NCBI GenBank assembly: GCA_963971575.1
Contig: OZ020611.1
Span: 208,795,324-208,859,323, forward strand
DNA: 64,000 nucleotides
Source of the DNA: Liopterus haemorrhoidalis
Lineage: Eukaryota; Arthropoda; Insecta; Coleoptera; Dytiscidae
Reading direction: 5' to 3'
The translations under genes were made by a program, and so were the position numbers. Under the pieces are notes generated by a model. It searched no databases, was not told the DNA's origin, and was given only the letters and a program-made list of their open reading frames with translations. Of this stretch, positions 6,360-64,000 are shown piece after piece; the first letter of the stretch is position 1, and each line of letters starts with the position of its first letter.

Positions 6360-7225
6360 TTTTTGGTTGGACCCACCTGAAATTTGGTGAACAAAAATTT
6401 TGGAAATATTTTTAGTCGTGCAATTACAGAATTTTCTTAAAATATTACTTGCCTTTTCTTAACATATTCTATTATTTATTATCTTAAATAAATTTAAAAA
6501 AGAGATTTTTTTTTTTCTAAAATATTGATATTTTTCGAAGAAATAATCTAATCAAAAATTCCCTTTTCAAGTTTTTGAACTAAGCCTTCTGTGTGATAAC
6601 ATTTTTTGGAAATATATTTGACAAACAAAAATCCATCAGAAAGTTTCTATTTTATTTATTTATTTTCATCCCTTAATCAATAGTTAAAGAGCTTCCATTT
6701 TATACTTCACAATACGTTTAAAAACAGTAAATAAATTTTGTCAACGATATAAAAACGAAAATAAAATCTAAATATTCCTTTTGTATTAATCCGGTTCACA
6801 TAAATGTGCATTACTTAGAATTTTTTCAGATTTTTAGACCAACCTCTCTGGGTTACAAGGGGGACACATTTCATAAAGCATATTTTTGGCAAAAACTGCC
6901 TTGAAATAAAATGTTTTTTAAAAATTGTTTTTTTTTTTCATTAATCCACACACCAAGAGCATTAGTACCTACCCCTCAAAATTTAAAATAAATATTTGTT
7001 GATTATTGGTTTCCTTTTTTCTACAAATATATTAATAATATATTTCGAGTGACATACTTTTCCCAAATCTGTTATTTTTCTCATTTATGGGTTAAAGAAC
7101 TGTATAAGTTTGTATTCAACTCCATAGATTCAGTCTTTTGCCTGTAATGTATACCGTATCATACAGACATACAGATATATGAGAGATGGTATAATGGTTT
7201 CTTTGTTTTACCTACGAAACTCTAA
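6360..7225. repeat. AGGGTTTTGTAGGTAT-family fragments in the intron
   Basis: The stretch shares with later copies the boxes AATTCCCTTTTCAA, TTTTTAGACCAACC and GTATTCAACTCCATAG, then a run ending in ACCTACGAAACTCTAAA at about 7210, which is the degraded AGGGTTTTGTAGGTAT end. No coding capacity is seen. Confidence 0.6.
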
Positions 7226-7277
7226 ATATTTTATTTTTCAGTTAATTTTATTTTGTTTTTCATTTTCTTTTAAATAG

Positions 7278-8530
7278 ATTCATCATGTCCAACACCAAGC
7301 ATCAAGAGTGCAAGAGTCTGCGCTTCATCATTACATTCTACGAACATAGAAAATGTAGAATCTTCTGTTGATACTAGTCACGTGTCAGACAAATTTCTTA
7401 ATTCGGAATCTGTAGTTTCATCACCTTCCGTTATAAATGAAAAACTTAGAACATCTACACCGAGAAAGGAAGAAATTCCAAAAGAAAATGGAATACAAAA
7501 AGATGTTTCACCAAGATTAATAATTCAAAAAGAACCTGAATTAGTTTTAAAATCAGAAGAAATAAATGAATTGGAAGCGGAATGGCAGTATCAATTGCCG
7601 TCACCACCTAAAGCTTTTAGAGATACAAGTCCGACTAATTTTACCGATATGACAAACTATGACACAATCACCTTTAATGGACTATCAGTCGATTCAGTGG
7701 TTACTCCACCACCTACGTTTGATGCAAATGACCGATCAGATAGTAAAACAATATCAGAAGTGGATTCGGAAAAAAAAGTTTTAACTTCAAAATACTTATC
7801 ACTAGAAAATCTAGAAAAAAGAAAGTCATTAGTTCTAGAAAGAGAATTAGCTAGTCTTAAAGTTGCTCAAAATGAGAAAAATGACATCACACTCAGGAAT
7901 CAAAAAAATAATTTAATAAATGAAGTTGAAGAAGTTATCCAAAACAGATCGAACCGTTCTTCAACGCTATCCAGAACAAACAGTCAATCCAAAGAAAAAA
8001 TATTACAATCCGACAGTACTTTACCTAACTTCAAAATAACAACATACGATCAACCAAAATCAAAAATAAACATCTTTGAAGATGACACTATAAGAAGTAA
8101 CGTTGATAAAAAATACGATCAAGAAAAAAGAAATTCAGTCGCTGATATTAACATAAGTTTCAAACCTAAAAATTTTGAATCTGATACTTTTTTAGCACAC
8201 AAAAGAAACTCATTAGGTAGTTCTTCGACAGAAAATTTAACTTTCATGAAAAGAATGAACAGTATTGATGATGCAATGTTTAAAAAACCGCAAGAAGTAC
8301 CAAAATACAGTAAATTTAGTTCATTAGCAAAGAAAAATATATCTAACGGAGACTCAGTTTCAAGATCGGAATCCTTTTCTCAGACAAATGGTTGGTCCAA
8401 GTCTAATCCGGTCAAGAGATCAAAGTCACAAGTTTCTTTAGAAAGATATAATAAAGAAGAAAAAGTAAATGAAGAAGATATGCAAAAATCAAATAGTATG
8501 TGGAATGTATCAGGACTTCAAAGTTTAGAG
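7278..8530 (+). CDS. Cobl-like WH2 protein, middle exon
   Basis: The acceptor TTTTAAATAG precedes 7278 and the donor GAG|GTGAGC follows 8530. The exon opens with SSCPTPSIKSARVCASSL in frame with the upstream exon and ends in phase 0. The product is Ser/Lys/Asn-rich and probably disordered. At 7583-7624 it carries WQYQLPSPPKAFRD, which resembles a W.Y.LP.PP.AF.D motif of Cobl/Cobll1 proteins (recognised from memory). A likely short helical stretch follows at about 7796-7870 (SLENLEKRKSLVLERELASL). Several RSxS and RNS sites suggest phosphorylation. The first ATG-free start at 7382 is not used; translation enters from the upstream exon. Confidence 0.75.
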
Positions 8531-15777: not shown

Positions 15778-17807
15778 TTAGTCAGTGTTCTATTCATGAC
15801 GTCACCATTAACTGTTCGCTCAGCGCTCGCTCTACCCTGTGCAACTCGAATGTACCCTTAGGAGTAATATTGCTTCACAATACAATACACAAAATGTTTG
15901 AATAATATTCATACATAAATGAATCATATGTTGATATTTTTCAATAGTGATCACTAAACATTATTAAATATTACTAGACCTCCTTTTCACTTTTAACAAG
16001 TTGGGTGTAAAAAATTAAAGTATTATATTTTGGAACTACAAGAAATTTCAGAATGCTACGAAAAACTTTTATTAGAGTGAAATGTGTTCATTCAGTGCGC
16101 TAATAAATATGAACTCGCAAATCTGAGGTCCAAAAATGTACCTCAACTGTCTCAAACCTACTTGATTTATGTATATGTACCCCATAGCACTAAGCCTTTT
16201 AATGAACATACGAAACTACTATTCAGTGTTACTAAAAAAGTGTTTTGATATTCATCGTATACTCAGTTTCAATGAATCATTGAAAATTACTTGAAACTGA
16301 ACTTGTACTGTGTTTTTTACATCACATTTTATCAAATTAGTCATTTTAAGAAATTTATATATTGTACATAAAAATTTACAAACTGTCCTAGAAACTGCAT
16401 TGTTTTCGAGTTAATTCCAATCTACCAGTTTTTTTTTTTTTTATATATAATTGTATTGTTACGTAAACGAATGTTACTACCTCTGTGTTTAAATTGTTTA
16501 ACTCAATTTGGCTTCAAACGAATTATAAATCAAATAAAAAGACAATATTTAAACAGTATTTTAATTTTTTTCAACATAGAGAGAGTATGTTGAACAACAA
16601 TTTCCAAGATCAAATAAAACCAATTAAAAAAAAAAAAAATGAACAACAACACAATTCGTAAATTGTCCCATCATGGTATAAGGTTAAAAATTTATATCTA
16701 ATAACTGTGCGTCTCTTTCTTTATTAACCACTTACAGAGATCAATCTGAACTGCGGTATCCTGATACCTCTTCACCATTTTCTCGCATATTGAACAACTT
16801 TTCGCAGTAAATAGTTATCAGATGTGTTTGATTGCGGGGATTGATAAGGGACTAATAACACTTCGGATTTCCATATGTGACTACGCTTCAAGCCTCGTCA
16901 TTTGAACTGGAGTTAGACAGGCTACTGCGCATGCTAGAAATTTTCGTACGAACCAAATCATGATCAGAAAATAGAGATTAGTCTCCATTGACATAAATTA
17001 CATTTCTAACTGTAAATATATTTAGTTGGAAAAGTTTATTTTTTATAATCAGTAGGAGTTAAGGGTGATGTTTATGAATTCGAATTGGTTCTGTACCGTA
17101 CGAAAATATTTTTCAAATTTGCTCTGGTCAACTGACTACAAATTTGCAAATTTTATTTGGAAATTGGTCAACTGACTGTGTCAGAAACAGACATAGAATT
17201 ATTTTAAATGAATTTGGGATTTAATTAGCTAATGAACATGTTGATCCCTGAAATACATTCTTCTAAATTTTATAACTTCTGGAAAAAATCTTTAGTTAGT
17301 ACTAAGGAGTCTGCTAATATGTCTTAACTCGTACTCATGTATCTATACTTTATTGAGTGATTAAATTTATTTATGATACTATTTTCAACTTAAAATTGCT
17401 CAACTAACTAAACTATAGTATACCTTCTTGAAAAGTAAACTTATATGTTATTTGTTAAAAAGTGTAAAAATTAAATTTGTTGAATTCGAATTAAATTTAA
17501 TTTAATTAATTTACGATTTTTTTTTGAAGATTTGAAAATAGTATTTAATACGATTTTTCGTAATTATAAATTATTTTGTACATTTATTTTTTAAAGATTT
17601 TGATATAATTTAACTTGAACATTTTGTAGAAAAGTTCGTATTTAATTTGCAAAAAATATGCCTTGTTTGACTGATTTGTGTCATAGTTTACTTTACTGAG
17701 ATTAAAAAAATGTTAAAATATTAACTGTATTTTGTTATATACTCCCCCACCCCCGTTTCATATTTTACAGCGCAAGAAATGGATTTTAATATTAAGGTAA
17801 GTCAAAT
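15778..17807. other. AT-rich region, nothing recognised
   Basis: About 2 kb with homopolymer T and A runs. No open frame, splice-like exon or inverted repeat that could be named was seen. Confidence 0.4.
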
Positions 17808-17809
17808 TA

Positions 17810-18215
17810 CAGTCTGTTCCAAACGATTAAGCGGAACTAGATTTTGCAATCTAGTTACTTTCATCGTTTAAATCGTGCCTTTCGGCCGTTTTGTTTAAGC
17901 TTTGTAAATCATACTTACAATAAACATTTTTTGGTTAAGGTTAATATCATTTTAAAATGTCATTTTCTTTATATTTTGATTTTTGTGTCATTCTTAATAC
18001 AAATTTCGCATTTATTTATTTTTTTGTCATTAAAATATCCAAAAAAAATATTTAATTTTGACATATGTCATTCGTTTCCATGGTTTCATTGTTGGAATTT
18101 TAAATTTTGACATCCCAACGTGAAAAATGAAATAACCCAAGCAAGGTCCCTTCTCGTGACAACCTAAAAGAACTAAATTCCCATTTAGTTCCGCTTAACC
18201 GTTTGGAACAGACTG
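17810..18215. mobile_element. TA-flanked MITE, CAGTCTGTTCCAAACG ends
   Basis: The left end CAGTCTGTTCCAAACGATTA and the right end (complement CAGTCTGTTCCAAACGGTTA) share about 30 bp. TA flanks both sides, as in Tc1/mariner-class insertions. A related element lies inverted at 54170-54574: both contain the block AAGCAAGGTCCCTTCTCGTG or its complement. The single long frame inside is not conserved. Confidence 0.8.
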
Positions 18216-19345
18216 TATGTATAGTTTCAAACCAGCAACATCAGTAAAACCAGAAATACATTATTTTGAAATTATTTTTAGAAATGTTTATAAATTATTT
18301 ATTACATTATTATTATTATTTATTGAAAACAAGTCTCTTGAATTTTATTTTCAAATTTCTCTAAGTGGTGACAAGCATCTAACGATCCCGCACGTCATAT
18401 ATGGGATGATTTTGAGTTGAATACACACAGCTGCAACCTAAACCCTGGCGCTATGTGAAAATTAGGCCAGATCCCGAACTCGAACAAACCAGAAATCAAT
18501 CAGACCTGCAGATCAGCGAAATAGCAGAATTTCTACTAGCTGAAATGATAACAAAATGCCAATAAATGGAAAAAAACATTTTATTATTGTTATTATTATT
18601 ATCAAGGCCGGCGAGTTATATCGTTCACCCATGCGTATGGAATGGGGCGGGCCCCGCACTGGCGCAATGCAATTGCTAATGATAGCCCTGCAAAGTTTGT
18701 AACCGACTCTGTTTATTATTTGTCGAAAAACGTCCCTCAATTGTTCATAGATACCTGCTGCGGCTTGGTTAGTTAGTTACAATTCTTGTCTCTCTTTCTC
18801 CAAATTATCTCTCACAAACTAATCCCACACTATTAACTAGTGTAACAAATAGGTTTTACTTCTCTTAGGAGGTGTCTGTAGCTGTTCAATGATCAAAACA
18901 TAATTGTATTATGACGGTTTCTCCTCTCCTGTTACTCTTCCAGGAAACTATGAATTATTAGATAGCTAAGATGACCAAATTTTGAAAATTGTAACCAGAA
19001 TAAATAACGACCCCCCCCCAAGATTATATTTGCTTTCCATAAGCACATTAGCATTTAAAATCAAATTATTTCAAGTGTATGTTTAAATATACTTCTAGTA
19101 GTAGCTCGTGCTGAACGGACTGTTCCTATATATACCTAAGGTTCGTTTCGAAGCATTATACAGTAATGAATGTTTATCAATACAGACACAAGTCTTTTTA
19201 TCTAAGCCTTATCGGTAGAAGATTGATTGAACAATTTATCTGTTCTTAAACTCCGCACATAATTCATTTTAACGAAAATAAAAACGCTGTTAATGCACAT
19301 ACACACACAGCAACATGGTTTGCTGAGGTACTAAGTTGCAGTCAC
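18216..19345. other. Region without recognised genes
   Basis: It contains a (TTA)n-like stretch near 18578-18602 and a GC-rich patch at 18605-18680 (GGCGGGCCCCGCACTGGCGC), but no motif or repeat boundary that I recognise. Confidence 0.35.
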
Positions 19346-29420: not shown

Positions 29421-29619
29421 CCGTAACTAGGCAGATGTACAGAGGAGTCCAGAAAACTTTCAAATACTGCCCTTTTTTATTACTTGTCAAACTTTTTGGA
29501 TTTCCTTTTATTACTCGTCAGACTCATTTTGGACCCGACACCGGTCGTTTTAAAACAGTTGTATCACTTGTAGTAGTTTTAAAAATGTCACTACTACTGC
29601 GAACCGGTTACTAAATTAT

Positions 29620-31088
29620 TTGTTTTTTTTTTAAATCAACACTTCTGGGAAATGGGATGTGGGACAAAAGTTTTTTTTTTGACATTTTGAGAGAAAATCG
29701 TAAATATATTTGTTTTTTCAAAAATTAAATTATCTACGTCTATCTGCGCATCAAGAGGTTTTATTTGATACCCTACTAAATTTTTTTTACATATATTTAT
29801 TCCTTCGTTAAATACAAATTTGTTTATATTTTTCGCGCAATGTGTTTTTTACTATTTGCGAGTTAAAGAACTGTATATGCAGCCAAATTTCAACTCTCTT
29901 GGTCTTGCCGTTTTTTTTTACCATACAGACACATTAGTGACGGTAGAAGGTTTTTTTTTGTCGTACCTGCAAAACCCTAAAAAGGTCTTTGAGCAAACCT
30001 AAAAAAATCTGATGTGAAGTGTGAATTTACACATTTTAGGGTTTTGTAGGTATTTAATAAGTGTAAGAAGCCAACATAATACTGGATGTCTAGGAATATT
30101 TATTCTATAATCACATCAAAATCAACAGATTTTTGATAATCATTTTTATTCGTTATTTGAATACTAAGAGCTTCCATTTATTTTTTTTAAACAAAATTTA
30201 AATAATATGCCTAAAATCACAGCATTTTTTTTCTACTTTTGCTTCGTATTCAAGTCTTCATTAGATTAATAAGGAATATATTGATTAAAAACTTCATTTT
30301 TTTAAATTTCAGAAACGTATTTCTCACTATCAACAATGTGTTATTTGTTTTATAAGTATTTCATTACAAAAACTGCACTATTTTTTAAAAACGCAATCGA
30401 AACAATACATATTACCTAAATTTTTTTCAGATTTTTGTTCAACTTTTGTGGGTAAAAGGGGGCGGGACAAGAACTTTTTTAGCACATTTTTGACTAAAAT
30501 CGTGTTTATAGAATTTTGTTTATTCGAATTTTAAAAAACTAATATCCGTTCCTTAATCTACGTCTTAAGAGCTTTAGATACAACACCAAAAAAATTTAAA
30601 AAATATTTTTTTTTCGACGACAAAAAATTTACATTTTTCGAAAAACTAACCTGATCAAAAATTTCTATTGAACTATTCCGTTTTCCGTCAATGTTCATTA
30701 TGGAGATTTTTTTCTAATTTTTAGATCAACCCCTCTGAGAGATAGGGTGGGGGACAAAAGTTTTTTGACATATTTTTGGCATAAATTCCACAAAAAAAAA
30801 GATTTTTCAAAAATAAAAATTTGCTTGTTGATCCGCGCATTAAGAGGTTTCATTTGGAATGACACAAAAATGTTTATTTTTTTATTAAATACATAACTGT
30901 TTTTTGAACTCTCAGTATTTTTCCTATATGTGGGTCATGGTCCCAGCATCTCTGGGCAGGCCTCCAGGCTAGAAATTTTGGCCCAAAAATAATATAATAA
31001 AATATACAAACAACTGAATTAAAAGAACAAGTTACAAGGTGTCATTTGAAATTGTGTTATTTTATTCATTTTATAATGGGTGTTTTAC
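29620..31088. repeat. AGGGTTTTGTAGGTAT-family fragments, clustered
   Basis: Several partial copies lie end to end. One ends near 30000 with TACCTGCAAAACCCTAAA. The next begins AAGTGTGAATTTACACATTT with AGGGTTTTGTAGGTATTTAA at about 30035. Further copies carry the TTCTATTGAACTATTCCG box (about 30660). From about 30945 a GC-richer insert begins (CATCTCTGGGCAGGCCTCC). No coding. Confidence 0.65.
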
Positions 31089-31092
31089 TTAA

Positions 31093-31343
31093 CACGTTCG
31101 CGGACAGTACGGCTTTAGCCGTCGAATATTTTTCTTAGCTCAGGTCATGACGGTCTAAACCGTCCTACTTTTTTATTCAAATATACAAATGACGGCTGGG
31201 GCAGGTTTTAATTCCATTTAAGTATATGAAAACTAGTATAAACTGTCCTCAGAACCAAACACAGTAAATATCTTATTATAAACAAAAATCTAAAAAAGTG
31301 ACATTTTGGGTACATCTCATTGTATAAAATTGTCCGCGACGTG
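31093..31343. mobile_element. piggyBac-type MITE (251 bp)
   Basis: It is flanked by TTAA on both sides (31089-31092 and 31344-31347). The ends are CACGTTCGCGGACA and TGTCCGCGACGTG. Inside each end there are short palindromes (ACGGCTTTAGCCGT and ACGGTCTAAACCGT). The TTAA target and CG-rich short ends fit piggyBac-like non-autonomous elements. Confidence 0.85.
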
Positions 31344-31347
31344 TTAA

Positions 31348-32613
31348 CTTATACAATTATATTAAAATACAAAAAACACAATATCAGAAAAAATTACAAG
31401 TTTCCTCCGGGCCCTCAAGCTCGGGCCCGACGCTAGGGCCCTGCCAGCCCCCTCCTTCCCCTTGTGGGGCTATATTGTGGGCCAAAACAATTTCTACCCT
31501 ACAGACAGACAGACAGACATATGAGTGAAGCTATAAGGGTTTTTTGGTGGTCATACCTACAAAACCCTAATAAATGGAATTGAAATCGGAACTGTTATCT
31601 AATTTAACTTATTGTATAATTAAAACATTGTTGCATACTTTGTATGAATGGCTCTTTTCATTACTTAGAAGGGACAATAAACTAAAATAATTATTATTAC
31701 AAGCATTTCCATAATCTACAGAGATATTTGAAATAATTCAACAATAACCAAAACCCTTGTCATGAAAGTTAGGCAATTTTCACAGGCGTATTCTGCGTAT
31801 TATCCTTGGCGGGCATTGTGCTCGGTGAACGGCTGAAGTCGAGCAGCTAAACTAACTTGGCTGTGCGCCGGGTTGTCTCTGATAACATTGTGACAACGAA
31901 TCCAATAGTACCTTGTTCTGTGCGTAAACAAACGTGCCTATTCAACTTGTTTGCAAGATTTTACATTAGAAAGTCAGATCTGTATTTAATATAGCTATTT
32001 TATGTATGAAATTAATTTGGTTGCATTTTAAACATTTATTTCCTATTTAATAAAATTAAATAACGCAAGTCTTATCCAGTGCTGTAGTCGTATAAAAAGC
32101 AACAGCAGCAGTGGTGAAAGACAGGGGCGAAAGGGGCACAGGACCAGGCCGCCCTCTTGAAGTGGCGCCAAAAGAACGCTAATATACATATTCTAAGAAT
32201 ATTCTAGAAATATACATATTCTAAGTTTTTATTGTTTTTCTGTTTTTATTTCGGACAAAAAAATAAATTTTCATTTCTATATCAATCTCGTACATATTCA
32301 ATACAAAATTGAATATAAATACGTACACATATTTTGATTATATAATAATATTCAGTCTTCCTTTGGGCTTCTACAAAATATTCAAAACATTATATATGCA
32401 TATTATTGTCAGTAGCGGCTCTAGTAAATATGGCGCCCCAATGCAAAATTCAAAACGACGCCCCCGTGTTAAAAATTTAACCAAAGAAAGGTGAAAAATA
32501 TGTCCCTTCCGACAAGGCGCCCCATGCCGTGCACAACTCGCTTACAGAGCCGGCCTTAGTAAGTGTGGATCCACGGGCGAGATTTTTTTGCTGCCCTCAT
32601 AAAAAAAAAATTA
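31348..32613. other. Mosaic of transposon ends, no gene
   Basis: It contains a GC-rich CGGGCCCTCAAGCTCGGGCC patch (31398-31440), the end of an AGGGTTTTGTAGGTAT-family copy (to about 31570), and hAT-like ends with GGCGCCCC motifs (about 32130-32170 and 32408-32530). No frame of interest. Confidence 0.45.
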
Positions 32614-42978: not shown

Positions 42979-43872
42979 TTTGATTTTTAGGGTTTTGTAG
43001 GTATGAAAATTGTAGCCAAACGGCTAAACCTAGAGAGTTGAAATTTGGCATGTTTATACAACGCTTTGACCCGCACATAGGAAAATTACTAAAACATCTA
43101 AAAAACATATACCCCTAAAAATATAAACAAATATGTGTTCATCGAAAAAGAAAATAGTTTTTTAAAATTCTGAGTAGGGTATCAAATGAAAACCCGTAGT
43201 ATGTGGATTAACGATCAAAATTTTATTTTTGCAAAATAAATTATTTTGACGCGATTTATGCCAAAATTGTGCAAAATTTTTTTTGTGCCTCACACCCTCT
43301 AGCCCTGATGGTTTCAACTAAAAAACTGAAAAAATTCTAAGTAATGTACATTGGTGAGAACCGGAATAGTACAACAGGAATTTTTGATCAGATTATGTGG
43401 AAAATAACGCATTTTTTGTGTTTTTAACTAAAATATGTAAAATTCATCTGGAAACAATTTTATTTTTTGTTTTTTTTTTCATTTTTATTTTGTTTAAATT
43501 ATTTTGTCAAAATTCTAGTTATATTTTGGCAAATGTTACATTTAATTTTTAAAAGCGTAAATTTAATAACCAGTGGGAAGTGTTGAAATTATAATTTAAT
43601 TCTATGTTTCAATGTATACGAAATCAGAGAGGCGGAACTTATGACTTAAAACAACCAATGGAAGTCATAGGCCCAATTTTCAAAATCTTAATGAACCTTG
43701 CTATATAAAAAAATACTGCACATATTTAGAAACCTAAATAATGGTATTAGGCATTCGAATTAAAATTAACAAAAAAATAGTTTAGTTTTGGCATCCTAAA
43801 AAATCATCATTCACTTACTAAATACCTGCGAAACCCTGAAATATGTGCAAACTCACACTTCACATATATTTT
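42979..43872 (+). repeat. AGGGTTTTGTAGGTAT-family element lacking the tRNA-like cassette
   Basis: It starts AGGGTTTTGTAGGTATGAAA and ends ATACCTGCGAAACCCTGAAA then TTCACATATAT. It shares with the copies at 53097, 61446 and 62863 the boxes GGCTAAACCTAGAGAGTTGA, ATTAACGATCAAAATTTTAT and ATAACGCATTTTTTGTG. Where the others have a tRNA-like cassette it has only a short AT stretch (about 43425-43460). Non-coding. Confidence 0.8.
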
Positions 43873-44899: not shown

Positions 44900-44934
44900 A
44901 GTAATGTACACTATATTTTCGGACGGAAAGAGTT

Positions 44935-46130
44935 TTTTTTTTATCGTTGAATACATACTTGTTTATTTTTCCCGCGATGTGTTTACTTGAATTGTCAATA
45001 GTTTTCCTATATCTGTGGGTCGATAAGCTATACATGCATGCTAAATTTCAAATTTTCTTTTTAGGCCTAACCGTTAGGCCACAATTTCCATCCTACAGAC
45101 AGACACATGAGCGACGTTATAAGGGTTTTATGGCCATACCTACAAAACCCTAAAAATTAACTAAAAATTTGAAGTGAAGTGTGAATTTTCACACATTTCA
45201 GGGTTTTGCAGGTATTTAGTAGGTGTAAGAATCCAACAACTGGATGTTTAGGTATATTTATCACATCAAAAGCAACAGCTTTTTTTGATATTCACTGTTA
45301 TTCGTTATTTGAGAACTAAGAGCTTCCATTTAATTTTTTTAAACAAAGCTTAAATAACTTGCCAAATTCCCAGCGTTATTTTCTGCATTTGCTTCGTATA
45401 CAAGTCTTCATTAGATTAATAAGAAATATTGTACAGTATAGAGTGTAGTGTGGTGTGGTGTGAGTAACTCAGTTCGCCACTATTAAAAAAATATATAATT
45501 TTTTTAATATTTTTAATTCCAAAAAAATACAAGCACTATCTTAGCTATAAATACAAAAAATCCATAACATTATCAGCCATAATTTAACCATGAATTAAAA
45601 AAAAAATAATTTTTTCAAAAACACAAAAACTGTCATATTTTTCAAAAACACAATCTAATCAAAAATTCCACTCGTACCTTTCCGGCTCAGATCAATGTTC
45701 ATTACCTATAATTTTTTCAGATTTTTAGTTTAACCCATTTTGGTAAAAGGATGCGGGACATTTTTGGCGTGTTAAAAGCAAAAGCAATTTTGGAAGCTAA
45801 AAGCAATTTTGGACGTGTTTAGCATTTAATTCGTGTTAAAAGAAACAAATTTCAAAAAACTATCTATCGTTCCGTAATCTTCGTCTTTAGAGCTTTCTTG
45901 ATACCAGACAATAGATTTTAAAAAAATATTTTTTTTATGAACGACACAAAATAATCGACATTTTTCGAAAAATTTCTGATCAAAAATTCCTGTTGAACTA
46001 TTTCGGTTCCCATCAATGTTCAATACGGAGTTTTTTTTTAGATTTTTAGATCAATCCCTTTGAAAGATAGGGTGGGGGACAAAAATTTTTTGACAAATTT
46101 TTGGCATAAATACAGTAAAAAAAACAACCA
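44935..46130. repeat. AGGGTTTTGTAGGTAT-family copies, back to back
   Basis: A minus-oriented end (ACCTACAAAACCCTAAAAAT near 45138-45157) is followed by AAGTGTGAATTTTCACACAT with AGGGTTTTGCAGGTATTTAG (about 45175-45220), so two elements abut. The later part carries TTCCTGTTGAACTATTTCGG and related boxes. No coding. Confidence 0.65.
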
Positions 46131-47065
46131 TACTATATAAAAATATTAAAAATATTGCCCAAATCCCAGATGTCCGATTTATAAGGGCAATAGACATCGC
46201 CATAAACTTATCACATCTGGTTTAAAATAAAGTAGCTACATAAAGTGAATTGTTTGTTTACTATTAACCCGGCAAAAATGTTAGATAATTCACTTCTATA
46301 GAGTTTTATTTATTTAACTGAGTGGCGTTCTACCTACATATTGCAAACCAACAACTGTATTGAACGAACGACCGACAATTGACCGACCTGTGTCTCGGGA
46401 ACATGTTTACTTAGCCGGCTCAGCAAACTGAACGACCTCCACTGATCCGGTTCCGCAAACTGAGCCGAAATTCCCATCTCTAGTTATTGCCGATATCATC
46501 AGATTATTAATTAACTTTACAAAATAGTACACCCCCCAGCAAAATGTCCTAGCTTCATTACTGACGGCACTGCCTCAAAAAAGTACCGGAGTTATAAAGT
46601 GAAGTGCAACTTGCCACCACAAGAAACAATCAACAGGGCGCCACTGGTTGTGACCCGTGCATGTTGACACCTCTTGAAGTTTTGTCACGTGTAGTTATTT
46701 TATCGGTCGAACCTGTTCAAGTTGTCAAAACGTGTTTTTCACAGCACCACCAGACCTTGACCTTCGTTTACCTCAATATACTCTTCAACCAAAATTCAAT
46801 TTTTTTATCTATTTATTGTTCCGAAGTTTTTATTATGATTTATTTCAATTTAATGATATAGTGTCACCGAAAACATAAAAAATCATCACGTCATTTTAAT
46901 TATACACAGTAAAACCGCAAATTTATGGATCTGAATCATCTGGAACAATCCGGTTTTTTTGGTTTACGAATATTTATTGCTAAAACGTCACACGAGAAAT
47001 GTTACATATTTGTTGTTTGTCAGAACCTGATTAATTCCTGAAAATTATTTTTGCGAAAAATGCTA
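46131..47065. other. Region without recognised genes
   Basis: No convincing coding region. Near 46910-46980 a CAGTAAAACCGCAAATTTAT stretch resembles a pogo-like end but has no partner. Confidence 0.35.
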
Positions 47066-53070: not shown

Positions 53071-53150
53071 AATACATTTTTAAAAAAAGTTTTTGATTTT
53101 TTTAGTGTTTTGTAGGTATGACCAAAAAACCCTTATACCGTTATTTTGTC

Positions 53151-53192
<42 letters not shown>

Positions 53193-53666
53193 TCGGTACA
53201 AATTGTAGCCAAACGGATAAACCTAGAGAGTTGAAATTTGGCATGCTTATACAACTCTTTGACCCGCACATAGGAAAAATACTAAAACATCTAAAAAACA
53301 TACCCCCCTAAAAATATAAACAAATATGTGCTCATCGAAAACAAAAATATTTTTTTTAAATTCTGAGTAGGGTATCAAATGAAAGCCCTTAGTACGTGGA
53401 TTAACGATCAAATTTTTATTTTTGAAAAACAAATTATTTTGATGCGATTTTTGCCAAAATTGTGCAAAAAAAATTTGATCCCACACCCTGTAGCCCAGAT
53501 GGTTTAAACTAAAAATCTAAAAAAATTCTAAGTAATGTATATTGGTGTGAACCGAAATAGTACAACAGGAATTTTTGATCAGCTTATGTTTTCGGAAAAT
53601 AACGCATTTTTTGTGGTTTTTGGTTCACAAAGTACAAAAGTTATACCAATGTAAGACACTCACATG

Positions 53667-54753
53667 TAGGGATGGGAATTTATTTTTGAATATCGATATA
53701 TGCGCGATTCGATACATCGTAAGTATGATATCGATATTCGATATATATCGAAGTAAAAATATCGATATTTTCGATATATCGAAATAACTAACACGTAACA
53801 TGTAAGATATATAAATTACATATTTTTTGGTTGGCTTGGCGGGAAAAGAAGTCGCCAATTGACAGACAATCACTTTACAGTTGGTACTCACCCAGCTATC
53901 AACCAACTTTCTAATATTATCCTTGTTAACTGGTCTCTTAATTAAATATATATTCTGTTCACTTTTGTAAGGAGAAACCAGATTTTTTGGTTACTTTTAT
54001 AGTGTATTACGGTCTTTAAATATCAATTAAAAATATTCCTTATACTGTAAAACCGACTTTAGATTTATTGGTTATGATCATTATTAAGAAAATGACAATT
54101 TTTATAATTTTTTAATACCAGCATGTCAATTTCAAAGGTGCAAATTATTGAAATCAAAATTTCGTCTTATAGGCTATTCCAAACGATTAGGCGGAACTAA
54201 ATGGAAATTTCGTTATTTTAGGCTGTCACGAAAAGGGACCTTGCTTGGGTTATTTCATGTTTTAGGTTTGGTATGTGAAAAATTTAAATTCTAACAGTGA
54301 AACTATGGAAACGAATGACATATATCAAATATTTTAATACATTTTTCCATATTTTGAAGACAAAAAAATTAATACATGGGAAATTTTTATTAAGAATGAC
54401 AAAAAACTAAAATGTAATGAAAAGGACATTTTATAATGACAATCAATTTAATCTAGAATTTGCAATATGAGCATGATTTTCAAAGCCTAAACAAAATGAC
54501 CAAAAGTCCGAATTAATTGATAAAAATTACTAGATTTCAAAAATTAGTATCGCCTAAACGTTTGGAATAGCCTATAGTTTGTTTCTACAAAAGTGAACAC
54601 CAAATATTTAAATGTAAAAAATATACAAGAATACCGATATTTTGAGCGAATATCGATATTTTGCGCGATATATCGCATTTCAAATATCGATATAAAAATA
54701 TCGATATATTTTTCTAAAGTATCGATATTTTCGATATATCGTTCCCATCCCTA
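53667..54753. mobile_element. Non-autonomous hAT element with ATATCGATAT arrays
   Basis: The ends are TAGGGATGGGAA and TTCCCATCCCTA. The exact 8-bp duplication CTCACATG lies at 53659-53666 and 54754-54761. Subterminal regions are dense in ATATCGATAT and TCGATATATCG motifs. A TA-flanked MITE is nested at 54170-54574. No transposase. Confidence 0.9.
54170..54574. mobile_element. TA-flanked MITE nested in the hAT element
   Basis: The ends TAGGCTATTCCAAACGATTA and the complement of CGTTTGGAATAGCCTA are flanked by TA on both sides. The interior block GTCACGAAAAGGGACCTTGC is the complement of that in the MITE at 17810-18215, so the two are relatives with diverged tips. Confidence 0.85.
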
Positions 54754-54763
54754 CTCACATGCA

Positions 54764-54852
54764 AGGCGTACGATGGCGTTATTGGTTAGTGCACTGGTGT
54801 CGTAGCTAAAACTCGCTGGTAAACGAAGAGCTTTCGAGTTCGAGTACTGAGT
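54764..54852 (+). other. tRNA-like cassette (A and B boxes), variant 1
   Basis: An A-box-like TGGCGTTATTGGTTAGTGCA and a B-box-like GAGTTCGAGTACT. The spacing is longer than in the other variants. It sits between the ATAACGCATTTTTTGTG box and the ATTTTTATTATGTTGAAATT box of its element, at the same place as the cassettes at 61779 and 63381. It is not a normal tRNA gene by eye because the acceptor and anticodon stems are poor. Confidence 0.55.
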
Positions 54853-55139
54853 GAATTTTATTTTTTCTGTTTTTTTTTTTGCATTTTTATTATGTTGAAA
54901 TTATTTTGTCAAAATTCTAGTTATATTTTGACAAATGTTGTATTTAATTTTTAAGAGCGTAAATTTAATAATTATCTTATTATATGATTAACAGACGATA
55001 AATTATTTTAAAAATATCGTTCATTTTGCCGTGATTACTACAAAGTAAAATTTGTCCTACACACTCAGCATACCGCCTTCACTTATTATATACCTGCGAA
55101 ACCCTGAAATGTGTGAATATTCACACTTCACATCAATTT

Positions 55140-57228: not shown

Positions 57229-57570
57229 TTTTTAAACCTATTGTTTTATAATCTAGGTTTATTCACAGTTACATTTCTAACTATTCACAGTTACAAGGTA
57301 GTGCAGGGTGAGGCTTAGCCTCTCGCTTGGCAAAATGACTGCCCTCATTGGTATATCTTTCTTCTGTATTAGTGGTGCAACCATGTCCAATAGCTGACTT
57401 TATACCTTTTGATTCATTCTGAAGAAATTGCAGTAATCTGCTGACTCTCGAAGCAAATTACCATGATAATGTGTCGACCACCGCCTTAACTATTTCCTGG
57501 TTCATAATCTTCTCTTCTTCTTCAGTTTATTATTGAAAGCTGCACATCACGCAACGAGTATATCGTGATA

Positions 57571-58508
57571 GTCGTGAGTCGGTGAGTCGGTGAGTCGGTG
57601 AGTCGGTGAGTCGGTGGGTCGGTGAGTCGGTGAGTCGGTGAGTCGGTGAGTCGGTGAGTCGTGAGTCGTGAGTCGTGAGTCGGTGAGTCGGTGAGTCGGT
57701 GAGTCGTTGAGTCGTTGAGTCGTGAGTCGTGAGTCGTGAGTCGTGAGTCGTGTGTCGTGAGTCGTGAGTCGGTGAGTCGGAGAGTCGGTGAGTCGGAGAG
57801 TCGGAGAGTCGGAGAGTCGGAGAGTCGGAGAGTCGGAGAGTCGGAGAGTCGGAGAGTCGGAGAGTCTGTGAGTCGGAGAGTCGGAGAGTCGGAGAGTCGG
57901 AGAGTCGGAGAGTCGGAGAGTCGGAGAGTCGGAGAGTCGGAGAGTCGGTGAGTCGGTGAGTCGGTGAGTCGGTGAGTCGGTGAGTCGGTGAGTCGGTGAG
58001 TCGGTGAGTCGGTGAGTCGGTGAGTCGGTGAGTCGGTGAGTCGGTGAGTCGGTGAGTCGGTGAGTCGGTGAGTCGGTGAGTCGGTGAGTCGGTGAGTCGT
58101 TGAGTCGTGAGTCGTGAGTCGTGAGTCGTGAGTCGTGAGTCGTGAGTCGTGAGTCGTGAGTCGTGAGTCGTGAGTCGTGAGTCGTGAGTCGTGAGTCGTG
58201 AGTCGTGAGTCGTGAGTCGTGAGTCGTGAGTCGTGAGTCGTGAGTCGTGAGTCGTGAGTCGTGAGTCGTGAGTCGTGAGTCGTGAGTCGGCAGTCGGCAG
58301 TCGGCAGTCGGCAGTCGGCAGTCGGCAGTCGGCAGTCGGCAGTCGGCAGTCGGCAGTCGGCAGTCGGCAGTCGGCAGTCGGCAGTCGGCAGTCGGCAGTC
58401 GGCAGTCGGCAGTCGGCAGTCGGCAGTCGGCAGTCGGCAGTCGGCAGTCGGCAGTCGGCAGTCGGCAGTCGGCAGTCGGCAGTCGGCAGTCGGCAGTCGG
58501 CAGTCGGA
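57571..58508. repeat. Composite minisatellite of 7- and 8-bp units
   Basis: A 938-bp array of blocks around a GAGTC/CAGTC core: 8-bp GGTGAGTC (from 57571, again about 57950-58098), 8-bp GGAGAGTC (about 57775-57950), 7-bp CGTGAGT (about 58099-58285) and 7-bp GGCAGTC (about 58286-58508). Copies within blocks are nearly identical, with rare singletons (GTGGGTCG, GTGTGTCG). Both strands are stop-free in more than one frame, but encoded products are simple heptad or octad repeats with no evidence of translation. Confidence 0.95.
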
Positions 58509-60948: not shown

Positions 60949-61445
60949 TATTTAAAAATAACAACTTAGAACAATTTAAATTATCTTCTATATTTAAACC
61001 ATTATTTTTCTCTATTTAGAAATTAAATTTTTGTATTTATAAAAAGTTGGCAATATTAATATTAACAAAACGTGCCATCATTTTCTCCATATTTTTTTCT
61101 TGGCAATAATTTTATTAATTCATAAAATATAATAAAATTCTGCATGTTGTATGATTATAAAACAGGTTTTCAAAGTTAAAACGTGATTTAAAAACATAAC
61201 TCATCAGACCTTAAAACGTATGAATATTTGAGTGAATGTTTGCTTTATATGAATACTAAAATGTGATATATTAATAAATTCGCGGTCACTTTTTATGAGA
61301 TTACATAATAATAAATAATTTGTATGTTTATTTCATATTTAGAGTTTCAATTACATTTTAATCGAAGTGCTTGTACTTTCAAATATAAGGGAAAACATTA
61401 TAAATCGGGTAAAGCTTTAAAAATAAATTTTATGTTAAAATATTT
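60949..61445. other. AT-rich region, nothing recognised
   Basis: No frame, inverted repeat or named motif was seen. Confidence 0.35.
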
Positions 61446-62573
61446 TTTTTGTTAATTTTAATTCGAATACCTAATACCATTATTTAGGTTTCTAAATATG
61501 TGCAGATTTTTTTTTTTTTTTTTGTAGCAATGTTCATTAAGATTTTGATAATTGCGCCTATAGCTTCCATTGGTTGTTTTAAGTCATATGCTCCGCTCCT
61601 CTGGTTTCGTATACATGACACATAAAAGAATGAAAATATAATTCCAACAATTCCAACTGGTTATTAAATTTACGCTCTTAAAAATTAAATGTACCATTTG
61701 CCAAAATATAACTAGAATTTTGACAAAATAATTTAAACAAAATAAAAATGAAAGAAAAAACAAAAAATAAAATTGTTTCCTCTGCCCGGGAGCGAACCTT
61801 AGTTTGCTGTGCAGCAAGCGAGCAAGCTAATCATTAGACTAGGATACGCCTTATAGTATAGTGTGTTACATAACTATAACTTTTGTACATTGTCAACTAA
61901 AAACACAAAAAATGCGTTATTTTCCTAGCGTTATTTTTGATCAGAAAACATAATCTGATCAAAATTTCCTGTTGTTCTATTCTAGTTAATGTACACCAAT
62001 GTACATTAATTTTTTTGCCACATTTTGACAATTTTTTTTTTTTGCATAATTTTGGCGAAAATCGCATCAAAATAATTTATTTTTGTAACGGGACGCCACT
62101 GTGCCCAGTTTTTTTAGTGCGAAGAGATGAGGGTTGCTATGTTTACGAGTTGTTATTGTGAGATGAATGTTTAAACGTCAAAAAATACAAAAACTATTTT
62201 ACATTTATATTCTATTATAATTGATTTAAATGAACAAAGTTTTTTACTATATGTTGTGGATAGTGTGGTGTAATTAATTATGTAGTTTGTTTTACCCTAA
62301 ATAAATCTTAATAAATATATATTTTTTGCAATAAAATGCTACGTTTTGCAAAAATAAAATTTGGTCGTTAATCCACGTACTAAGGGTGTTTCATTTGATA
62401 CCCTACTCAGAATTACAAAAAAAAACATGTTTTTGTTCGATGAACACATATTTGTTTATATGTACAAATTTCAACTCTCTAGGTTTAGCCGTTTGGTTAC
62501 AATTTTTACCGAACAGACAGACGACAAAATGAAGGTGTAAGGATTTTTTGGATTATCTACAAAACCCTAAAAA
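61446..62573 (-). repeat. AGGGTTTTGTAGGTAT-family element with tRNA-like cassette, minus orientation
   Basis: Read on the minus strand it begins AGGGTTTTGTAGATAATCC at 62573 side, carries CCAAACGGCTAAACCTAGAG, the ATAACGCATTTTTTGTG box, the tRNA-like cassette (61779-61850), AATTATTTTGTCAAAATTCT and GAAACCTAAATAATGGTATT. It lacks the final CACACTTCACATC tip. Non-coding. Confidence 0.75.
61779..61850 (-). other. tRNA-like cassette, variant 2
   Basis: On the minus strand an A-box-like TAGTCTAATGATTAGCTTGC and a strong B-box-like AGGTTCGCTCCCGGGC. Length is about 72 nt, close to a tRNA. It is flanked by TATGTAACACACTATACTAT and AAACAATTTTATTTTTTG, which are shared with the other copies better than the cassette itself is. 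Confidence 0.6.
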
Positions 62574-62574
62574 T

Positions 62575-62850
62575 GAAGCCTTTTAACAATATATTTCTTA
62601 TTAATCTAATGAAGACTTGAATACGAAGCAAATGCAGAAAAAAATGCTGGGTATTTTGGCAAATAATTTAATTTTTTTTTTAAACAAATGGAAGCTTTTA
62701 GCACTCAAATAACGAATAAAAATGATTATCAAAAATCTGTTGATTTTGATGTAATTATAGAACAAATATTCCTAGACATCCAGTATTATGTTGGCTTCTT
62801 ACACTTAATAAATGCCTACAAAACCCTGAAATGGGTAAAAATTCATTCTT
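62575..62850 (-). repeat. End module of an AGGGTTTTGTAGGTAT-family element
   Basis: On the minus strand this starts AATGAATTTTTACCCATTTC with AGGGTTTTGTAGGCATTTAT and continues GTGTAAGAAGCCAACATAAT, matching 30015-30290 and 45170-45430. It abuts, head to head, the next element starting at 62863. Confidence 0.7.
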
Positions 62851-62862
62851 CATTCAATTTTT

Positions 62863-63847
62863 AGGGTTTTGTAGGTATGACCAAAAAACCCTTATACCGT
62901 CATTTTGTCGTCTGTCTGTCTGTCTGTCTGTTCGGTAAAAATTGTAGCCAAACGGCTAAACCTAGAGAGTTGAAATTTGGCATGCTTATACAACTCTTTG
63001 ACCGGCACATAGGAAAAATACTAAAACATCTAAAAAACATATCCCCCTAAAGATATAAAAAATATGTGCTCATCGAAAAAAAAAATATATTTTTTTAAAA
63101 TTCTGAGTCGGGTATCATATGAAAGCCCTTGGTACGTGGATTAACGATCAAATTTTTATTTTTGCAAAATAAATTATTTTGAAGCGATTTTTGCCCAAAC
63201 TGTGCAAATTTTTGTGCAACCCAGCAGGTTTAAACTAAAAATCTGAAAAAATTCTAAGCAATGTACATTGGTGTAAACCGAATTTTTAATCAGATTATGT
63301 TTTTGGAAAAAACGCATTTTTTGTGTTTTTTTGCTAATAATGTACACATGTTACTTATGTAACACGCTAGATTGGAAAATGGATCCTGGTGTAATGGTAA
63401 TGGCGCTGGTATATCACCCGTCTAAATCAGTTCGAACCCTGCGAGAGGACATAAAATTATTTTTTGTTTATTTTTTGCATTTTTATTTTGTTAAATAATT
63501 TCTAGTTATATTTTGGCAAATGTTGCATTTATTTTTTAAAAGCGTAAATTTAAAAACCAGTGGAAAGTGTTGAAATTATAATTAAATTCTATGTTTGAAT
63601 GTATACTAAATCAGAAGGCGGGGCCTATGACTTAAGCAACCAATGGAAGCCATAGGCGTAATTTTCAAAATTTTAAAGAACCTTGCTATATAAAAAAAAA
63701 AAAAAAATACTGCACATATTTAGAAACCTAAATAATGGTATTAGGCATTCAAATTAAAATTCATAAAAAAATATTTTGACAAATAATCATCATTCAGTTA
63801 CTAAATACCTGCGACCCTGAAATGTGTGAAAATTCACACTTCACATC
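62863..63847 (+). repeat. AGGGTTTTGTAGGTAT-family element with tRNA-like cassette, best copy
   Basis: It starts AGGGTTTTGTAGGTATGACC, includes a short (GTCT)n run (62909-62931), CGGCTAAACCTAGAGAGTTG, ACTCTTTGACCGGCACATAG, the ATTTTTTGTG box, the cassette at 63381-63450, TGGCAAATGTTGCATTTATT and the end ATACCTGCGACCCTGAAATG with TCACACTTCACATCAA. It is about 985 bp, the least interrupted long copy. No open frame. Confidence 0.85.
63381..63450 (+). other. tRNA-like cassette, variant 3
   Basis: An A-box-like TGGTGTAATGGTAATGGCGC and a canonical-looking B-box AGTTCGAACCCTG. It is about 70 nt and begins GGATCC. Flanks ATGTTACTTATGTAACACGC and AAAATTATTTTTTG match the other copies. Confidence 0.65.
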
Positions 63848-64000
63848 AATCCTATAATATAATACGCCTGTTTGTATGTTCGTATGTTCGACCGGTCGTT
63901 TCTTCATTCCCCGATAGAGGCGCGCATATGTTAATTATTTATGTCAAAATTGTTTAAAATATATTGTTGATGCAATAATAGTGAATTTTCTACAAACACT

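Follow-up and report, generated by a model that had tools for sequence, protein, structure and literature searches.

Rolling-circle transposons are known capturers of gene pieces, and tRNA-derived SINEs are families of high copy number, divided into subfamilies, that carry a tRNA-like box A and box B. Among literature titles and the opening lines of abstracts, no description was found of a Pol III unit in Helentrons, Helitrons, MITEs or DINE-1/HINEs. The closest described elements are those of the HINE/DINE-1 (INE-1) type, which, in the passages of PMC4067079 and PMC2374699 that describe them, are marked by subterminal inverted repeats (subTIRs), a 3' palindrome, a GTCY microsatellite, insertion at T-runs and very high copy number, and which are treated in corresponding passages as deletion derivatives of Helentrons with Rep, helicase and endonuclease (Thomas et al., 2014, PMC4067079). 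For Drosophila DINE-1, Pol III promoter sequences and similarity to tRNAs are reported as absent in the pertinent passage of Yang and Barbash (2008, PMC2374699). MITEs with a (GTCY)n microsatellite, to go by the title of Coates et al. (2011) as cited in PMC4067079, have inverted ends together with this microsatellite, and may belong with these elements under a different name.

The family described here occurs in several copies in the window, by which we mean the whole stretch of 64,000 nucleotides that was analysed; its features are collected in Table 1. By their sequence, these copies are HINE/DINE-1-like non-autonomous Helentrons, that is, rolling-circle elements, and not members of a TIR or MITE family: the subTIR, the 3' palindrome, the T-rich insertion site, the GTCY microsatellite and the origin by deletion from a Helentron are all found. 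The microsatellite, in the form GTCT, is present in three of the four named copies and absent from the one at 42 kb. With the (GTCY)n MITEs, as far as their title describes them, the family has the inverted ends and the microsatellite in common, but it is without symmetric TIRs or a target duplication; and unlike Drosophila DINE-1, as characterized in the passage cited above, it has a box A/box B-like unit, hereafter the cassette, in every subfamily sampled.

Table 1. Coordinates of the HINE copies in the window and of their parts.
Feature	Position	Strand	Remarks
Full HINE copy, subfamily A	62863..63849	+	5' subTIR AGGGTTTTGTAGGTAT to 3' end CACTTCACATCAA
GTCT microsatellite	62910..62931	+	typical of DINE-1/HINE block A, by the description in PMC2374699
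ACGCATTTTTTGTG box, A copy	63312-63325	+
Leader, moderately variable	63326..63364	+	from ACGCATTTTTTGTG box to end of ATGTAACA
Cassette, A type, predicted Pol III unit	63365..63455	+
Box A TGGTGTAATGG, A-type cassette	63387..63397	+
Box B GTTCGAACCC, A-type cassette	63430..63439	+
T-rich predicted Pol III terminator	63456..63476	+	ATTATTTTTT, TTTATTTTTT
3' subterminal inverted repeat and palindrome	63805..63839	+	ATACCTGCG..CCCTG
Palindrome GTGTGAAAATTCACAC of A copy	63824-63839	+
HINE copy, subfamily B	61427..62568	-	5' end at 62568; truncated at 3' end
Cassette, B type	61772..61863	-	box A-like 61831-61841, box B 61788-61797, terminator 61762-61771
HINE copy, subfamily C	53104..55138	+	nested element inside
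Nested TIR element TAGGGATGGG...CCCATCCCTA	53667..54753	+	1.09 kb; inserted at the cassette's 5' edge
Remainder of C-type cassette	54762..54856	+	box A 54774-54785, box B 54836-54847, terminator 54857-54866
HINE copy, cassette lost	42989..43867	+	site 43421-43458

The coordinates bear out the preliminary description in that three copies carry box A/box B cassettes at one and the same place while the copy at about 43 kb has none; they amend it in that a nested element interrupts the 53-kb copy and splits its cassette, and in that the copy at 61-62 kb is without a 3' end, neither a 3' subTIR nor a palindrome being found in it. The nested element, which we take to be hAT-like, is bordered by an 8-bp target duplication, CTCACATG, at 53659-53666 and 54754-54761, and C-type relatives without the insert have a single CTCACATG-like stretch at that place. 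Elsewhere in the window, 17803-18217 is related to this nested element (80% identity).

The ends of the element were defined from five young full copies (L083-L087). In all five, the 5' end is a T-run followed by AGGGTTTTGTAGGTAT and the 3' end is ATACCTGCGAAACCCTGAAATGTGTGAATATTCACACTTCACATCAA followed by a T-run; L084 and L087 deviate by one or two bases. At the left end the inverted repeat is terminal, but at the right it is subterminal, and thus asymmetric: a near-complement of the 5' AGGGTTTTGTAGGTAT, ATACCTGCGAAACCCT, sits 31 nt from the 3' end and is followed, near the terminus, by the 16-nt palindrome GTGTGAATATTCACAC (one base off in L084). By eye, T-runs flank all five copies and no target duplication besides these Ts is seen in them. 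The ends, asymmetric and without symmetric TIRs or a fixed target duplication, exclude a TIR transposon or MITE of hAT or Merlin type; the earlier designation as a TIR family is therefore withdrawn, the 3' inverted repeat being subterminal with the palindrome after it. Genome-wide searches for the family, over 1.02 Gb, returned 7304, 9703, 2278 and 10353 first-look candidates, of which 40 were scored per search; subfamily C, to which the 53-kb copy belongs, has a young subtype, with 97-99% identity to the query among the copies scored. Viral contigs give no match to one exact 30-mer of the 3' flank.

The same genome holds a Helentron to which these copies can be related. A search for the Helitron Rep domain gives 91 matches, two of which, both on contig C14, fall in a frame of 2492 aa; the one scanned with Pfam (L165) contains Helitron_like_N, PIF1 and a C-terminal Exo_endo_phos, and this succession of Rep, PIF1 helicase and endonuclease is the Helentron architecture. 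The HINE 3' end recurs about 0.7 kb downstream of the 2492-aa frame with 91-94% identity, and the full HINE 5' part, cassette included, lies upstream of it (at L168) with 80-88% identity to the five HINE queries tried; the cassette there has box A TAGTGCAATGGT and box B TGTTCAAATCC, 44 nt apart. The junction of a cassette-bearing 5' part with the Helentron body, searched with a pattern that itself requires the leader letters TAACAC, occurs at 124 places and at none in the control; all 72 of the places printed with their letters, among 100 listed of the 124, carry such a cassette by eye. Frames as long as that of L165 hold no more than two of the Rep matches, and most of the 124 are therefore probably non-autonomous themselves. 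In the HINE copies, the 3' junctions lie at short repeats (TTTT or TTCACTTA) that recur at either end of the missing stretch, a trace to be expected of internal deletions; to judge from this and from the matching ends, the HINE copies are apparently deletion derivatives of the Helentron.

Two further observations concern the rolling-circle elements of this genome. A second Helitron lineage (L164, G000:C4:31640001-31650000) has a frame of 1664 aa with OTU, Helitron_like_N and PIF1, in which no endonuclease match is found at E<=0.001; three of its copies on contig C4 are spaced by about 9,588 bases, which suggests tandem rolling-circle arrays. A 790-nt segment of Helentron body (L166:421-1210) shows about 100% identity in 40 of 40 scored places (810 candidates) and is a very young expansion.

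Between the two exact flanking boxes, a cassette-length spacing of 145-175 nt occurs at 2524 places in the genome and a deletion-length spacing of 55-85 nt at 18, with none in the control for either; the longest C-type cassettes lie outside these two ranges, and a looser pattern finds 8455 places. As the breakpoints at the 18 places also differ by eye, an ancestral state without cassette is rejected, and the cassette-less copy of the window is probably a secondary loss. Within the cassette, box A is followed by box B about as far downstream as in a tRNA gene (the distance is 41-46 or 53-59 nt in all but two of 22 representatives, and 37 nt in those two, of the shortest C subtype), and a T-run lies some 10-20 nt past box B. 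Together the boxes score better than in dinucleotide shuffles (p<=0.05) in 21 of the 22 representatives, most of which were picked for cassette diversity, and in 19 of 20 copies taken consecutively from the top of 100 listed places of the looser pattern, against 0 of 19 flank pieces of equal length and 16 of 17 real tRNA genes; only the k type, whose box B is degenerate, does not, and this in either sample. Over the first 40 of these listed places, a complete box A (7/7) is found in 22 copies, compared with 1.2 for shuffles. The claim that boxes of Pol III type stand at a fixed internal site is thus upheld, and the cassette, with its boxes at tRNA-like spacing and a T-run downstream (21 of 22), is predicted to be a type 2 Pol III unit. 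TFIIIC would accordingly be expected to bind to it; the unit may be transcribed, and may be of use to the element. A conserved RNA fold is not seen in it (mean z -0.1, 22 sequences).

This arrangement resembles tRNA-derived SINEs in the tRNA-like boxes, the many copies and the subfamilies, but differs from them in that the unit is internal, some 500 nt inside an element that continues on both sides and has HINE ends, and in that a T-run follows at once and no A-rich or other retroposition tail is present; a tRNA-SINE is thereby excluded. So is a SINE inserted into a MITE, there being neither tail nor target duplication and the cassette being present already in the Helentron's own 5' region. 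Since the T-run comes directly after box B, a Pol III transcript should end inside the element, and the hybrid of DNA transposon and SINE that had been proposed gives way to a Helentron-derived HINE.

The cassettes differ far more than their surroundings. Consensus sequences of nine groups (A, from 37 copies; B, from 30; Cs and Cb, from 6 each; Ca, from 5; F and g, from 4 each; Cl and e, from 3 each) were compared in 36 pairs. They differ at 42/2592 sites (1.6%) of the adjacent 5' flank, 321/1467 of the leader and 278/3704 (7.5%) of the 3' flank, and at as many as 602/2286 (26%) of the cassette, where many indels come on top, gaps being uncounted, and where for several pairs the aligner favoured long gaps, so that few cassette sites enter the count. 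At the recent level (C subtypes; F, g and e), the 5' flank differs by 0-1%, the leader by 0-7%, the 3' flank by 0-5% and the cassette by 7-27% plus gaps. In the pair F-g there are 0/177 differences in the flanks, 3/43 in the leader and 19/81 in the cassette; in g-e, 2/174, 0/43 and 22/81, the last with 11 gap columns. The weakest pairs are Cs-Ca and Cs-Cb, with 6/85 in each cassette and 5/104 and 4/105 in the 3' flank; gaps apart, the contrast here is slight (7% against 4-5%), and the cassettes differ mainly by gaps. Two unsorted samples, which avoid the naming of subfamilies by their cassettes, agree with this picture. In the 20 consecutive copies, pairs mismatch on average at 2.0% of sites in the adjacent 5' flank, at 7.5% in the 3' flank, at 11.8% in the leader (median 2.4%; 19 of the 20 measured) and at 21.1% plus 14% gaps in the cassette; in the 16 of them sharing a C leader, the figures are 1.6% in the 5' flank, 3.6% in the 3' flank and 13.8% plus 9% gaps in the cassette. 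The preliminary description had the cassettes diverging far more than their flanks, and offered unusual pressure as one of two explanations; the former is confirmed by both the consensuses and the consecutive copies, and the latter gains support. A change much faster than in both flanks, with the control motifs largely kept, is unusual.

Once inserted, copies seem to decay evenly. In subfamily B (30 copies), copies diverge from the consensus by a mean of 0.047 in the cassette and of 0.038-0.045 in the flanks, although their selection by likeness to a single query may have narrowed the differences; the excess of cassette polymorphism is not significant there (Fisher, p 0.11). In subfamily A (37 copies, a sample that contains sublineages), the cassette outside the boxes stands at 0.137, the flanks at 0.043-0.049 and the boxes at 0.062-0.063; subfamily-level variable sites are enriched in the cassettes of both A (p 1.7e-7) and C (p 2.5e-8). 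Equal decay of cassette and flank, which had been named as the outcome that would speak against exchange of cassettes, is thus found within the homogeneous B, whereas between subfamilies the cassette is much the faster. From the even decay within B it follows that the fast change took place in source lineages.

The best reading of these data, and a probable one, is that the Pol III unit was inherited from the Helentron, and that its promoter motifs are kept while the rest diversifies. Internal deletions of the Helentron would have given rise to HINEs that keep the first ~1 kb and the last ~60-100 bases; the 5' part so kept would carry a small tRNA-like Pol III unit, with box B 37-59 nt past box A and a T-run as terminator, whose predicted product is a short RNA of ~70-110 nt from the cassette alone. 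One ancestral cassette would have diversified stepwise in the source (copying) lineages through substitutions and indels, at a rate several to many times that of the flanks, with box B kept and box A kept more loosely, and copies would decay about evenly after insertion. Change at the recent level is indeed strongest between the leader and the T-run, that is, in the predicted Pol III transcript, and a sliding window along the element rises highest over the cassette (to 0.48). Against this reading count the 3' third, which also rises in the sliding window (to 0.24), at least partly through alternative 3' segments; the contrast of the cassette to the 3' flank (7.5% to 26%), which is far smaller than that to the 5' flank; and the box A columns of the young C group, which are among its most variable (8 of 12 informative, in part at degenerate positions).

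The preliminary description had envisaged instead that different host tRNA genes, or the heads of tRNA-SINEs, were captured repeatedly at one site. For such swaps speak the tRNA-like box spacing, the gap-inclusive identity among the representatives, which does not much exceed that of shuffles (0.57 and 0.46), and the stretch between the boxes, which in 13 of the 22 is closer to one of 17 tRNA genes than are its own shuffles (p<=0.05), the best-matching tRNAs and isotypes differing among the 13. The comparison set, 17 high-scoring tRNA genes of seven isotypes from the same genome, leads to the opposite answer for the stems: acceptor pairing in the cassettes is 3.0/7 (2.8 by chance, 6.7 in real tRNAs) and T stem pairing 1.8/5 (2.4 by chance, 4.9 in real tRNAs), so the cassette does not have the cloverleaf fold of a tRNA gene. 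Searched against Rfam, 20 cassette loci give nothing at E<=1 and the window has no match in a gathering scan, and ARAGORN finds no tRNA in the window while recovering 17 of 17 tRNA controls. The expected similarity to tRNAs thus holds for the inter-box stretch and fails for fold and family matches; because of the former, a tRNA origin of the unit appears likely from sequence comparison. Over leader and cassette, all 22 representatives can be aligned as a single homologous series with intermediates: g, f, f2 and e are steps in it, and the C subtypes are set apart by substitutions and by 11- and 21-nt gaps between the boxes. Independent captures are therefore not needed, captured tRNA genes are rejected, and repeated capture is very unlikely. 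An ordinary unconstrained spacer, its contrast to the flanks an artefact of sorting subfamilies by cassette, is more improbable still; the choice of most representatives for cassette diversity would favour such an artefact, but the unsorted consecutive copies and those grouped by leader show the same contrast, and the boxes are kept far above shuffles.

The remaining alternatives accept a single series and explain the contrast by other means. Template switching or conversion among Helentron and HINE copies could homogenise the flanks and leave old, diverged cassettes either to persist or to be swapped as modules. The near-uniformity of the 5' flanks over the subfamilies fits this, as does the lack of correlation between their distances and those of the cassettes (14 representatives; Mantel r 0.06, p 0.24), set against a clear correlation for the 3' flanks (r 0.59, p 0.001); the difference hints at recombination to the left of the cassette. 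Cassette and 3' flank are, on the other hand, co-inherited by this same measure (with both flanks taken together, r 0.45, p 0.0015; without the C group, 0.38, p 0.046), the intermediates g-f-f2-e and the C subtypes exist, and identical flanks on both sides of different cassettes would require double switches in a short stretch. We consider recombination unlikely, if far from fanciful. tRNA genes have high mutation rates, and germline Pol III transcription might likewise mutate the source cassettes, with selection keeping only the boxes. The coincidence of the fast zone with the predicted transcript would be expected from this, as would a box B region of the C group in which 2 of 16 columns vary and none is informative, and the small cassette excess in dead B copies, if active copies alone are transcribed. 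Transcription-coupled mutagenesis should strike flanks too, but the leader is unchanged at the recent level (0/41 in six C-subtype pairs, and the zero count in g-e, with F-g the exception). Nor are the informative changes in the C group biased to transitions (14 transitions, 17 transversions), and the 11- and 21-nt gaps are among the differences; deamination-type mutation is rejected on the former ground. The likeness to hypermutable tRNA gene loci lies in a Pol III unit with locally fast change; the difference lies in a transcribed body that changes more than the leader, and in dead B copies that are not clearly faster. We consider transcription-coupled hypermutation doubtful, and place it after recombination.

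As to what drives diversification of an inherited unit, the cassette RNA may be the exposed part of an otherwise silent element, new variants escaping transcript-directed silencing by the host; we offer this tentatively, and rank it ahead of recombination and of transcription-coupled mutation, all three being far from certain. A bolder version, which we consider rather improbable, gives the Helentrons of this lineage a tRNA-like RNA of their own, transcribed by Pol III and at work in their life cycle, for example as a decoy or to open source copies, in an arms race with sequence-directed host silencing that would call for a new version in each successful subfamily; if true, the cassette would be an RNA-encoding, antigen-like module within a rolling-circle transposon. 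The family offers near-frozen flanks and thousands of copies as controls around a diversifying promoter module, and lets one test whether the sole transcribed stretch of a transposon is what host silencing sees.

Older, divergent relatives of the family lie in the window at 29550-31650, 44900-46200, 700-1350 and 6500-7300 (66-77% identity), with no cassette seen in them by eye; in the relative at 45-46 kb the site reads TTTTTGTGTTTTTGAAAAAATTATTTTTTTTTT, which by eye is possibly an empty state. At 62802-62863 and 45135-45225, copies stand head to tail, with no more than ~20 bases from the 3' end of one to where the next begins with its 5' end, as if T-run ends had served as insertion targets. 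Finally, 57570-58507 is occupied by tandem arrays of an 8-bp unit, (AGTCGGTG)n, and a 7-bp unit, (AGTCGGC)n, side by side.
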